From: Pseudomonadota bacterium
Lineage (GTDB): Bacteria; Pseudomonadota; Gammaproteobacteria; Burkholderiales; SG8-39
Assembly (NCBI GenBank): GCA_018241645.1
Contig: JAFEDL010000050.1
Coordinates: forward strand, 1-42,920
Direction of reading: 5' to 3'
Length of the DNA stretch: 42,920 nt
The translations under genes were made by a program, and so were the position numbers. Below are positions 7,481 to 10,698 of this stretch, piece by piece; position 1 is the first letter of the stretch, and each line of letters begins with the position of its first letter. The notes below the pieces were generated by a model. That model did not search any database, was not told the DNA's origin, and saw only the letters and a program-made list of their open reading frames with translations.

Positions 7481-8077
7481 ATGAACCATCCGCTGCAATG
7501 CCGGTGCGGCACGCTGAAGGGCTATGTCAGTCCTCCCGGCATGGCCGTCCGGATGATTTGCTATTGCAGGGATTGCCAGGCTTACGCCCGGTTTCTCGGA
7601 ACCCCCGGCGCTGTGCTGGATCCGCAGGGCGGCACCGAAATCGTCGCCACTCTTCCGGGGCAGGTGCATTTCACCGAGGGCGAGGCGGTCCTCGCCTGCA
7701 TGTCCCTGTCCGGCCGCGGGCCCCTGCGCTGGTATGCGAGCTGCTGCAATACACCCATCGGAAACACGTCCCGCGACTTCAAGACTGCGTATGTCGGCCT
7801 GGTTCACAGCTGCCTTGCCGGGAGCGAGCCTTCGCTGCAGGAATCGTTCGGGCCCGTGCGAATGGTGCTGTGGACAAAGTCCGCCAATGGCGAGGTGAAG
7901 CCCTCGCAGCTGGGAGTCTTCGCAGGCATGCTGAGGATCATGACGGGCGTGATCGGCGCGCGCATCGGCGGTGCCTACAAGCACAATCCCTTCTTCCTCG
8001 CGGATACGGGTACGGCTATCAGGGAGCCTCGCGTACTGACCGAGGCCGAGCGGGACCGGTTCACTAATCCCGTCTGA
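7481..8077 (+). CDS. DUF6151 family protein, GFA-like zinc-binding fold
   Basis: A 198-residue cytoplasmic protein of unknown function. Cys7 and Cys9 (CRCG), then Cys27, Cys29 and Cys32 (CYCRDC), and a later WYASCCNTP give the cysteine spacing of the glutathione-dependent formaldehyde-activating (GFA/CENP-V) zinc fold, to which DUF6151 proteins are related. The start is ATG 7481, 27 bp after hcrB; no clear ribosome binding site precedes it, so another start is possible. It may be the last gene of the hcr transcript, although the short gap could hold a weak promoter. A role in carbonyl or thiol-adduct handling would be a guess by analogy with GFA. The family call comes from the motif pattern. 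Confidence 0.72.
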   Translation: MNHPLQCRCGTLKGYVSPPGMAVRMICYCRDCQAYARFLGTPGAVLDPQGGTEIVATLPGQVHFTEGEAVLACMSLSGRGPLRWYASCCNTPIGNTSRDFKTAYVGLVHSCLAGSEPSLQESFGPVRMVLWTKSANGEVKPSQLGVFAGMLRIMTGVIGARIGGAYKHNPFFLADTGTAIREPRVLTEAERDRFTNPV

Positions 8078-8329
8078 CCCCTGCGTCCGTCCCGGGCGCT
8101 TAACCCGCGGCGCAGGGTGGCCGGCGTAGGGAGAAAGCAGGGGGGGCGCCAGGAGGTGATCAGGGGGAAAGCACATCTGCAGCGGTATTGTGGTTTCTGG
8201 CAAGCTGGCATAACGTGCTGAATACAGGGATGGACGACGCCGGGGAGCACGAATCTTGATATCAGATACGAGCGGGGTTCACGGAGTGTCACCTAAAGAA
8301 TGCCACCTAAAAATGTCAACCAAATCTAG
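8078..8329. other. non-coding stretch before the cassette array
   Basis: About 250 bp with no convincing gene. A seven-base stem (8079-8085 with 8111-8117) lies just after the DUF6151 stop but has no T-tract, so it is a poor terminator. A perfect 11-base match to the ideal Shine-Dalgarno sequence (8151-8161) is followed only by a 21-codon frame from GTG 8157. Two copies of CACCTAAA near 8290 and 8304 are the reverse complement of the TTTAGGTG found in the first two attC sites, and ACCA precedes GTTAGT at 8329. This end may be a decayed recombination site. Base composition becomes AT-richer from about 8200. Confidence 0.5.
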
Positions 8330-8357
8330 TTAGTTTGCTCGTAATGTTCCTACTTAC

Positions 8358-8621
8358 ATGACCGAGTCACAGGACAAAAACGGCGCGCGCGTTCAAGTCG
8401 GTTCCAAGGTACGGGTCGTTCAAATTCGCCCATCCGTGCTCGCGCCGCTCCCCGAAAAGGATAGGCAAAACGTTTTGAGCATGAAAGACGAAGTCTTCGA
8501 GGTCTACGAGATCGACCAGTGGGGCGGCGCTTGGGTAGAGAAGTGGTGGTATCACTCAGACGGCACTGCATTCTCACATTCACTTGGTTTGAGTGCGGAC
8601 GAAATGGAGATTGCCGAATGA
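8358..8621 (+). CDS. hypothetical small protein, first cassette gene
   Basis: An 87-residue protein of no recognised family, the only gene of the first cassette. The middle (VQVGSKVRVVQI, EVFEVYEIDQWGGAWVEKWW) looks like a run of beta strands, as in SH3-like folds, with many aromatic residues. There is no signal peptide or membrane segment. It starts at ATG 8358, 28 bp inside the cassette, and ends at TGA 8621, eight bases before the attC site begins, which is the compact layout usual for cassettes. Codon use is less GC-biased than in the flanking chromosome. The function is unknown. Confidence 0.7.
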   Translation: MTESQDKNGARVQVGSKVRVVQIRPSVLAPLPEKDRQNVLSMKDEVFEVYEIDQWGGAWVEKWWYHSDGTAFSHSLGLSADEMEIAE

Positions 8622-8628
8622 AAGAGCA

Positions 8629-8715
8629 AACTAACTTTAGGTGCTGCGGACGGGCTTCCGGCACCTCACAAGTGCAATCGTCCGCGTGGGCCCGCCGCAG
8701 ACCAGGACGTTGGGT
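8629..8715 (+). repeat. attC-like recombination site 1
   Basis: R'' is AACTAAC (8629-8635) and R' is GTTGGGT (8709-8715). Inside, GGTGCTGCGG and CCGCAGACC pair with one unpaired G on one arm, the extrahelical-base feature that orients attC recombination. The central part can also fold (CGGAC with GTCCG). Length is 87 bp. Its L'' side is nearly identical to that of attC site 2. Confidence 0.75.
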
Positions 8716-8721
8716 GGCGAG

Positions 8722-9168
8722 GTGACCGAGCGACGTAGCTTCCAGGACGAATTGCTCTCTGAGGAGTCGGCGTGGTTGCGCTGGCTGCTTGCGCTCGTAT
8801 GCGCAGTGATCGGGGTCACCTTTGCCGCACTATTGGTATGGTGGGTGAGCGGGTTTATCTCAAGGCCTCGCATCGACGCCGTAGTATGGTTTGTCGGAGG
8901 TGTTTTTGCCGCGCTTGCCGGCATCTTCCTTGTCGTGTCATATCGACTTGCGCTAAATCGTAGTAAGACTTCGAGATTGGGACTGCCGGGAGACCTTTTC
9001 CTAGCTGGCGGGTTCTTCGCCCTACTTGGGATCGGTGGTGTCGTTGCTGGCGATTTGGTCGAGTCGAACACCGCAGTTAAGGCCGTGCTTTCAGCTTTTG
9101 GCATGTCAGGAGTCTTAATAAGTTGTGGTGCTTTCGCAAGAAAGAACAAGAAGGGAGCATCACAGTGA
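8722..9168 (+). CDS. small integral membrane protein, cassette gene
   Basis: A 148-residue protein of no recognised family with four predicted membrane helices: about residues 18-46, 53-78, 89-112 and 120-138. A basic C-terminal tail (KNKKGASQ) suggests a cytoplasmic C-terminus. GTG 8722 is chosen because the frame further upstream, including a GTG at 8641, lies inside attC site 1; TTG 8710 at the crossover is a less likely alternative. A GGCGAG sequence precedes GTG 8722. The gene fills the second cassette almost completely and ends five bases before attC site 2. Confidence 0.65.
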   Translation: MTERRSFQDELLSEESAWLRWLLALVCAVIGVTFAALLVWWVSGFISRPRIDAVVWFVGGVFAALAGIFLVVSYRLALNRSKTSRLGLPGDLFLAGGFFALLGIGGVVAGDLVESNTAVKAVLSAFGMSGVLISCGAFARKNKKGASQ

Positions 9169-9172
9169 CGCC

Positions 9173-9229
9173 GCCTAACTTTAGGTGCAGCGGACCGCCG
9201 TCGGCGGCCGCTGACCAGGCACGTTAGAC
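9173..9229 (+). repeat. attC-like recombination site 2
   Basis: R'' is GCCTAAC (9173-9179) and R' is GTTAGAC (9223-9229), 57 bp in all. GGTGCAGCGG pairs with CCGCTGACC, again with one extra G on the left arm, and the loop is GC-rich. The conserved CTAACTTTAGGTGC of site 1 recurs here, which is strong evidence of a common recombination system. Confidence 0.85.
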
Positions 9230-9232
9230 GTC

Positions 9233-9676
9233 ATGCAATTCACTGTCACACCGGTGCCAGACGAAGCTCAATGCGAGGAGCTTGAGTCGTTCTTGATTGA
9301 GCGCATCTACGAGTTCAACGCGAAAGAGACTGGCTACTTCGACGGAAGACTCTTAGCGGGCACGGTGCGAAACGAGCGCGGCGAAGTCATCGCCGGCTTC
9401 AATGGCCACACTTGGGGAGGTTGCTGCGAGCTTTCTCATGTCTGGGTACACGAGCAGTACCGTGGGCATGGGCTTGGAACCGCGCTCCTTGCTTCCGCTG
9501 AAGCAGAGGCTCAATCGCGCGGTTGCGTGCAAATCGTTCTCGCCACACATAGTTTTCAGGCGCCAGCCTTCTATGAGCGCATGGGTTACGAGAGAAAGTA
9601 CGCTCTCGAGGGCCGGCCCCAGGGCCATTCGCAACTCATCTACTCAAAGCTCTTGCGTGACAGGAATGCCGTCTAA
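9233..9676 (+). CDS. GNAT family N-acetyltransferase, cassette gene
   Basis: A 147-residue acetyltransferase that would move an acetyl group from acetyl-CoA to an amine. The acetyl-CoA pyrophosphate loop is QYRGHGLGTALL (residues 75-86), preceded by a beta-bulge strand (CELSHVWV) and followed by the helix that ends in FYERMGYERK, the usual GNAT motif B. ATG 9233 lies four bases after the crossover site, so translation depends on upstream signals or a very short leader. The stop codon is part of the next R'' box. GNAT genes are among the commonest integron cassettes and include resistance enzymes, but nothing here identifies the substrate. Confidence 0.88.
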   Translation: MQFTVTPVPDEAQCEELESFLIERIYEFNAKETGYFDGRLLAGTVRNERGEVIAGFNGHTWGGCCELSHVWVHEQYRGHGLGTALLASAEAEAQSRGCVQIVLATHSFQAPAFYERMGYERKYALEGRPQGHSQLIYSKLLRDRNAV

Positions 9677-9739
9677 CCCTTCAATCCAGAGGACGTCACC
9701 CGGCAAGCCGGGCGCCGCCTCTCATCTCAAACGTTAGGC
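9671..9739 (+). repeat. attC-like recombination site 3
   Basis: R'' GTCTAAC (9671-9677) overlaps the stop codon of the GNAT gene; R' is GTTAGGC (9733-9739). The site is 69 bp long, with a central hairpin ACCCGGCAAGCCGGGC and AGAGG/CCTCT arms. The R'' box is the exact complement of the start of its own cassette (GTTAGAC at 9223). Confidence 0.8.
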
Positions 9740-9757
9740 CTCACTCAACGTTGTGCC

Positions 9758-10192
9758 ATGGTGTGCAATCAAGATCCTTATGATCTCAATCGCTTCGTCG
9801 AGGCGCACGCGGCAAACTATGACGACGCCCTCGCCGAATTGCGGGCCGGAAGGAAGCGCACTCATTGGAGTTGGTATGTCTTTCCTCAAATCTGCGGCCT
9901 CGGGTCCAGTGCCATGTCAGTCCGCTACGCCATAGGTTCTCTGGCTGAAGCCGTTGTCTACTTGCAGCACCCTGTACTCGGTCCCAGGCTTCGCGAGTGT
10001 GTGGCGTCAATGAATTCGCACCACGGTCCCAGTGCCACCGATATTCTGGGTGGCATCGATGCGCAAAAGCTTCATTCTTGTCTTACCTTGTTCATCCAGG
10101 CCGCTCCCTCAGAGCCGGTCTTCAATAAGGCGCTGCATAGGTACTTCGGTGGAGAGCCCGATGCGGCCACCCTCCATATTCTGGCGAACTGA
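9758..10192 (+). CDS. DUF1810 family protein, cassette gene
   Basis: A 144-residue cytoplasmic protein of unknown function. The signature of the family is easy to see: DPYDLNRFVEAHAANYDDAL, then THWSWYVFPQICGLG, an SVRYAIGSLAEAVVYLQHPVLGPRL helix region (about residues 54-78), and SCLTLF near the end. ATG 9758 begins 24 bp into its cassette and is followed at once by the conserved N-terminus. DUF1810 genes are widespread singletons in bacteria and are sometimes carried in cassettes. No catalytic mechanism is established to my knowledge. Base composition matches the other cassette genes rather than the chromosome. Confidence 0.85.
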   Translation: MVCNQDPYDLNRFVEAHAANYDDALAELRAGRKRTHWSWYVFPQICGLGSSAMSVRYAIGSLAEAVVYLQHPVLGPRLRECVASMNSHHGPSATDILGGIDAQKLHSCLTLFIQAAPSEPVFNKALHRYFGGEPDAATLHILAN

Positions 10193-10238
10193 CGTGTCCC
10201 GGCAATCCGGGCCACGCAACTGGTGTTAATTGTTAGCC
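10183..10238 (+). repeat. degenerate attC-like site 4
   Basis: R' is GTTAGCC (10232-10238) and a candidate R'' is GGCGAAC (10183-10189), six of seven bases complementary to it. Inside, ACGTGTCCCGG and CCGGGCCACG form a stem around CAAT. The right side carries about 15 unpaired bases and R' departs from the GTTRRRY rule at one base, so this site is probably decayed or weakly active. Confidence 0.5.
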
Positions 10239-10289
10239 TCATTAAGGGACTCCTCTGCGCAAATGTGAGCTCCTTGATATGCTGGTTAA

Positions 10290-10478
10290 ATGAAGGTCAG
10301 CGAAATACTTCGAATGCTTGGTGAGGATGGATGGTTTCTGGCCGCAACTCGCGGAAGCCACCGGCAATTCAAGCATCCCTCGAAGCTCGGGCGGGTCACG
10401 GTGCCGGGAAAGCCAAGCGACGACTTGGCACCGGGCACTCTGAACAGTATCCTGAAGCAATCAGGTCTTAAGAAGTGA
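10290..10478 (+). CDS. hicA: HicA toxin (mRNA interferase)
   Basis: A 62-residue protein with the double-stranded-RNA-binding-like HicA fold. HicA toxins cut mRNA independently of the ribosome, and the catalytic His is His24 in TRGSHRQFKHP. The conserved C-terminal pattern VTVPGKPSDDLAPGTLNSILKQ is complete, so the toxin looks intact. It starts at ATG 10290, about 50 bp after attC site 4, and its stop lies seven bases before the antitoxin start. Toxin-antitoxin pairs are frequent in large cassette arrays, where they resist cassette loss. This pair may do the same here, although no attC is recognisable after it. Confidence 0.92.
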   Translation: MKVSEILRMLGEDGWFLAATRGSHRQFKHPSKLGRVTVPGKPSDDLAPGTLNSILKQSGLKK

Positions 10479-10485
10479 GGCTCAA

Positions 10486-10698
10486 ATGCGCTACGCCATA
10501 GTGATCGAAAAAGCCGCGGGAAATTACTCGGCATACGTCCCCGACTTGCCCGGTTGTGTGGCCACGGGCGTCACCCTGGAGGAGGCGGAATCGCAAATCC
10601 GCGAGGCGATCGAATTTCATCTCGAAGGAATGCGCGAAGACGGGATCGCCATTCCGGCGCCGGCCAGTCGCGTCGAGTACGTCGACGTAGCGGCCTGA
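10486..10698 (+). CDS. hicB: HicB-family antitoxin
   Basis: A 70-residue antitoxin with the partial RNase-H-like HicB fold: YAIVIEKAAGNYSAYVPDLPGCVATG, then a helix TLEEAESQIREAIEFHLEGM (near residues 25-55). This version stops after the fold; it has no C-terminal ribbon-helix-helix or HTH domain, so direct operator binding by HicB is uncertain. Seven bases separate it from hicA, and GAGG at the end of hicA serves as ribosome binding site. It would bind HicA and cover its active site. Confidence 0.92.
   Translation: MRYAIVIEKAAGNYSAYVPDLPGCVATGVTLEEAESQIREAIEFHLEGMREDGIAIPAPASRVEYVDVAA

Follow-up and report, generated by a model that had tools for sequence, protein, structure and literature searches.

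The window analyzed here is an entire contig (C126; 42,920 bases) from the 3.67 Mb MAG of an uncultured Burkholderiales bacterium (genome G000). The MAG comprises 180 contigs and is 91% complete, with a contamination estimate of 0.56%. Its nearest named relatives, as judged by its integron integrase (IntI), are MAGs of uncultured Betaproteobacteria/Burkholderiales. Four records with integrons like those of this group of uncultured Burkholderiales (CAMAXP, CAMCYP, CAMAWC and CAMDKM) are MAGs titled 'Bordetella parapertussis' and look mislabelled.

At 8.1-10.7 kb, the window contains a block with a G+C content of 56.5%, compared with a mean of 67.5% (sd 3.0), which bears out the original prediction that this block is AT-richer than its flanks. 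That prediction placed four short genes on one strand, each followed by an integron recombination site (attC), at 8330-10232 and called them a CALIN, the term for clustered attC sites that have no integrase (Cury et al., IntegronFinder, PMC9024848). The extent proved too narrow: the feature begins at 8142, where a stub of an integrase gene (intI) and an attI site precede the first cassette, and ends at 10698 with a HicAB gene pair, the fifth cassette. Because the array sits in the interior of the 42.9 kb contig, a contig-edge split or edge artefact is excluded.

Gene cassettes and their attC sites

Rfam, searched at gathering thresholds, gave no matches in the window. Since it offered no matching model there, we built an attC covariance model from congeners, using 17 sites that were picked by eye from three congeneric genomes and aligned; none came from G000. 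Double changes occur in 9 of the 16 pairs of the consensus structure of these training sites. The top unrelated score of this model in the 42.9 kb was 11.4 bits.

Cassette 1 (8330-8709, plus strand) contains an ORF at 8358-8621 (87 aa) and site 1 at 8629-8715, which scored 67.9 bits (E 1e-15). It is followed on the same strand by cassette 2 (8710-9223), with an ORF that starts with GTG (8722-9168, 148 aa) and site 2 at 9173-9229 (48.3 bits, E 1.5e-10), and by cassette 3 (9224-9733), with an ORF at 9233-9676 for a GNAT acetyltransferase (Pfam PF00583, 3.6e-15) and site 3 at 9671-9739 (25.1 bits, E 2e-4). Rather than all four sites falling under the attC threshold, these three score well above background, and they lie inside 1.1 kb, forming the clustered attC sites of a CALIN. 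Cassette 4 (9734-10232, plus strand) carries an ORF at 9758-10192 with a DUF1810 domain (PF08837, 3.8e-54), and its 3' site is degenerate. This site 4 (about 10188-10237) gave no match to the attC model, even with filters off, and shows only a good hairpin in the DNA fold (z -4.1).

The start of each cassette was also compared with its own R'' box, with random 12-mers of the window as the reference. The start of cassette 1 (8329-8340) and positions 8624-8635 are reverse complements throughout all 12 bases (p 5e-5), and the start of cassette 3 matches at 11 of 12 positions (p 0.0014), in agreement with the complementarity proposed earlier for these two cassettes. The match of cassette 2 (9/12, p 0.09) is not significant alone, and cassette 4 has no complementary R'' (7/12, p=0.95). 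The unpaired base described in the left arm of two sites is visible in the DNA folds of sites 1 and 2. Thus, all four predicted genes are present and three of their four sites hold, because the attC scores and the complementarity between starts and R'' boxes fit cassettes 1-3 only.

Sites 1 and 2 conform to the attC consensus of the genus, and site 3 belongs to a different, order-wide type. Sequences of the latter type (9669-9739), with 75-94% identity, occur in more than 20 genomes from many families of the order, without the flanking genes, and occasionally as two copies within one array.

An ordinary operon or set of chromosomal genes with chance inverted repeats would account for site 4 and cassette 4, which lack the integron signature. 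Three strong attC matches in a row against an 11-bit background, an attI at the correct junction (see below), and the occurrence of the HicAB genes as a cassette elsewhere leave this reading practically no probability, and for sites 1-3 the attC scores refute it.

The first two cassettes carry genes of no known family. The cassette 1 protein had no matches in Pfam, NCBIfam or PADLOC, and its predicted structure (pLDDT 54) was set aside; the cassette 2 product is apparently a membrane protein by its sequence and matched no family. No defence systems were found among the cargo except for a weak HicA-like match.

Cassette 5 (10233-10698, plus strand) is truncated and consists of genes for HicA (10290-10478, PF07927) and a HicB-like protein (10486-10698, PF15919). 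In genomes G001 and G003, HicAB genes form a cassette with attC on both sides. Alignment of both cassette ends showed that R'' of the relatives overlaps the HicB stop codon; similarity of the window genes to these relatives stops at precisely this HicB stop/R'', and the attC is gone. No attC was detected 3' of the window HicB by model, fold or alignment. Judged from this alignment, the window HicAB is a fifth cassette whose own attC was lost. HicAB genes also adjoin attC in a number of further families of this order; over many families, this toxin-antitoxin pair moves as an integron cassette (the window, G001 C2, G003 C122 and C32, and L077-L089).

The array head and an integrase on a second contig

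The bases directly 5' of cassette 1 match a second contig of the MAG, C175, with 89% identity over 191 bases. In C175, the matching segment has a cassette array on one side and, on the other, an intact intI that is transcribed away from the array. Because the C175 counterpart lies between cassettes and an intact integron integrase gene, we assigned window positions 8191-8333 as attI; 136 of 142 positions (96%) are identical between the two copies. The attI region proper (8191-8329, plus strand) ends at G8329, with the crossover between G8329 and T8330, and has three 14-nt direct repeats at 8284-8324, upstream of the crossover. A promoter scan of attI revealed no sigma-70-like Pc.

Of the two further components of a complete integron, the locus has attI at 8191-8333 and lacks an intact adjoining intI. 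What is left of the latter is a degenerate stub on the minus strand (8142-8190), recognized by alignment, translation and tblastn, that comprises the 5' leader and the first ~11 codons. It reads VLSP-stop-SPPGAP against MTSPGSPPPVP in IntI, with the stop at codon 5. A search for more intI between the stub and the neighboring DUF6151 gene found nothing above noise, and no IntI similarity beyond the stub was found elsewhere in the window. By these comparisons, the original prediction overlooked the array head, in which attI and an intI stub precede cassette 1. The array is decayed at both ends. The CALIN label holds insofar as the cassettes have no adjoining integrase; the attI and intI stub at the head speak for a decayed integron instead.

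The original prediction advised looking for intI elsewhere in the genome, and one intact copy was found there, at C175:9745-10770. It encodes a full-length IntI of 342 aa, the only IntI over the cut-off in the MAG (TIGR02249, 472 bits; cut-off 265). The protein aligned along its length to structure 2A3V, the integron integrase of Vibrio cholerae (314 bits), and inspection of the alignment showed conserved R, K, H, R, H and Y at the catalytic positions. IntI recombines folded bottom strands of attC sites with attI. The C175 IntI could bind the C126 attI and attC sites 1-3, folded as bottom strands, and act in trans to integrate or excise cassettes. Mobilization in trans is possible for arrays that lack intI (PMC12444791). 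On the strength of these sequences, the supply of integrase in trans for this array is plausible, and we infer that the locus may be dormant, not necessarily dead.

The linkage of C126 and C175 consists of binning within one MAG, the congeneric flank of C175 and the attI identity, with no physical join. The two contigs may have come from different strains or species that never shared a cell, given a MAG in 180 contigs with some estimated contamination. The chromosomal flank of C175 is 78-83% identical in three congeners, so this contig belongs to the genus, and the two attI copies are closer to each other than to those of congeners. Misbinning or strain mixing is accordingly improbable.

A different possibility is that the array is a plain CALIN, produced when the C175 integrase inserted cassettes off-target at a non-att (attG-like) genomic site; this comes near the original prediction, in which the cassettes were brought in from another place. 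Off-target insertion is one of three proposed routes to CALINs (PMC8618304), no integrase lies beside the array, and an active-looking one is present elsewhere in the genome. The array is headed, however, by a copy of attI of ~140 bp and an intI stub, which is no chance secondary site, and congeners carry integron relics in the same neighborhood. Off-target insertion was rejected on the attI head and intI stub, features that fit loss of intI or rearrangement, and we consider it very improbable.

Integron relics and attI copies in the genus

In the window, the DUF6151 gene (7481-8077) separates a CoxM-like gene from the intI stub. Next to the CoxM-like gene of the congener G003 (contig C19) comes an intI relic, the C-terminal end (GRGVRSPLD...AGYAA), with the right half of an attC site and more cassettes beyond it; in the congener G004 (contig C12), the CoxM-like gene is followed by a different gene and then attI. 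Integron relics are thus found 3' of the CoxM-like gene in three species (this genome, G003 and G004), with a varying intervening gene. The sequence read downstream of the CoxM-like gene in three further genera of this family showed no integron. We tentatively infer a single ancestral insertion 3' of this gene; the gene between the CoxM-like gene and the relic differs, and the insertions near CoxM may also have been independent. The gene order expected of vertical inheritance across species is absent for the cassettes and present in part for the location, which is common to two congeners. With these relics by the same CoxM-like gene, and an attI type found only in this genus, the earlier proposal that the array came from another replicon is unsupported.

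The G003 C19 array joins the CoxM-like gene to a gene for an HflX-type GTPase. In G000, another cassette array, without attI, adjoins an HflX-type GTPase gene on contig C141 (L069, 7083-7169, 49 bits). That an HflX-type gene flanks both the CoxM-site array in G003 and the C141 array in G000 suggests that arrays are located at rearrangement breakpoints.

We searched 61 genomes with a 23-base attI signature, allowing up to 2 mismatches and using a reversed control. The signature occurred in four genomes, all of this genus, and was absent from the control. Three copies lie beside an intact intI (C175, G003 C24 and G004 C219), and five have no complete adjoining intI (C126, G001 C2, G003 C122, G004 C12 and G004 C35); attI of the latter kind was present in 4 of the 5 genus genomes examined. 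Full intI genes and attI copies of the genus are found at many different chromosomal positions. The intI relic of G003 C122 consists of IntI residues 1-14, 58-82 and those from 124 on, joined together, and that of G001 C2 looks like it in the alignment. An intact integrase on the same G001 contig (L058) has a different attI type. Past a sugar dehydrogenase gene, this contig has a second array with a truncated intI and a C175-type attI.

One and the same short palindrome (ACCGCTTCGCGGTGGTG) comes directly after the attI copies of G004 C12 (L063) and G003 C24 (L061). In G004 C12, the palindrome adjoins a tyrosine recombinase gene of a kind found together with IS91-like elements. Perhaps an element targets attI at these two loci.

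No congener has an attI nearly as similar to the C126 or C175 copy as these two are to one another (96%); in the middle of the attI region, identity is 33-81% between congeners and 95% between these two copies. In contrast to attI, the adjoining stub and leader (8138-8190) match C175 at 38 of 53 positions (~72%), with 8 gap columns. The difference between 136/142 and 38/53 gives a Fisher p of 9e-6, with the boundary placed after looking. This pattern suggests exchange or copying of the attI segment between these loci at a time when the stub had already diverged. Given an attI that is 96% identical next to a stub and leader at about 72%, recombination or gene conversion may have refreshed the C126 attI from the C175 integron. 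With a short stub (about 60 against 140 aligned sites) and a boundary chosen post hoc, the mosaic is a lead.

The same mosaic could arise by segmental duplication or rearrangement, in which attI and the first cassettes of a C175-type integron were copied or moved near CoxM. The apparent location of arrays at rearrangement points (the HflX-type gene by G003 C19 and by C141) is also in line with such an event. On the other hand, the C-terminal intI relic by CoxM in G003 means that a whole integron was once there in that species, and the first cassettes of C126 and C175 are entirely different. Duplication or rearrangement is a somewhat unlikely origin.

Origin of the array and relation to known integrons

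Very probably, the locus is what is left of a chromosomal integron whose intI was deleted: an array still headed by attI, for which a candidate integrase is available in trans. In the original layout, intI would have faced the CoxM-like gene, divergent from attI and the cassettes. A deletion would then have taken all of intI beyond the first ~11 codons, one attC would have degenerated, and the final cassette (HicAB) would have lost its attC. Present today are attI, four cassettes (three with recognizable attC) and the HicAB cassette without attC.

By IntegronFinder's definitions, C126 is a CALIN, and biologically it is a decayed integron. Like C126, CALINs are arrays of cassettes with at least two attC sites but without intI beside them, and they have been proposed to be degraded integrons; the C126 array differs in keeping attI and an intI stub. 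IntegronFinder no longer seeks attI by default, and attI outside class 1 goes undetected (PMC9024848). Because such an attI is not detected, IntegronFinder would list C126 as a bare CALIN, and since standard tools skip attI outside class 1, attI-headed arrays may be common but unseen.

Loss of intI with a retained array is already known in Xanthomonas (PMC12444791) and Treponema (PMC3607928). As in C126, intI of the Xanthomonas sedentary integron was lost or truncated and the array left in place, and, as in this genus, CALINs lie at other chromosomal loci of the same genomes (PMC12444791). The Xanthomonas integron site is nearly fixed (ilvD; PMC12444791), whereas intI and attI of this genus are at many positions, and the C126 genome has an intact intI alongside its decayed array. 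The integron remnant of Treponema phagedenis likewise kept attC and cassettes after loss of intI; there, no remaining intI was reported and the structure was called static (PMC3607928), whereas the C126 genome has a second, intact intI. Delta-attI-type gene cassettes, like C126, have attI sequence away from intI, and this attI is usable by an integrase; in them, a partial attI takes the place of an attC within arrays of class 1 or class 2 (PMC12901181), while the C126 attI heads its array, by a broken intI. What is less ordinary in the present case is the retained attI heads together with the mosaic divergence. A small literature search found no report of orphan attI spread through a genus.

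It is conceivable, if rather unlikely, that one integrase serves several attI-headed arrays, the attI copies without intI being kept as working landing sites and homogenized within the genome, i.e., a dispersed multi-locus integron. If the attI copies are inert, C126 simply documents ordinary integron decay. Arrays now listed as bare CALINs may be decayed integrons with a usable attI. The genus offers paired intact and orphan attI sites, which makes use in trans directly testable. If a distant integrase does use such an attI, cassette capture would extend beyond a single site, and the dividing line between integrons and CALINs would have to be redrawn.
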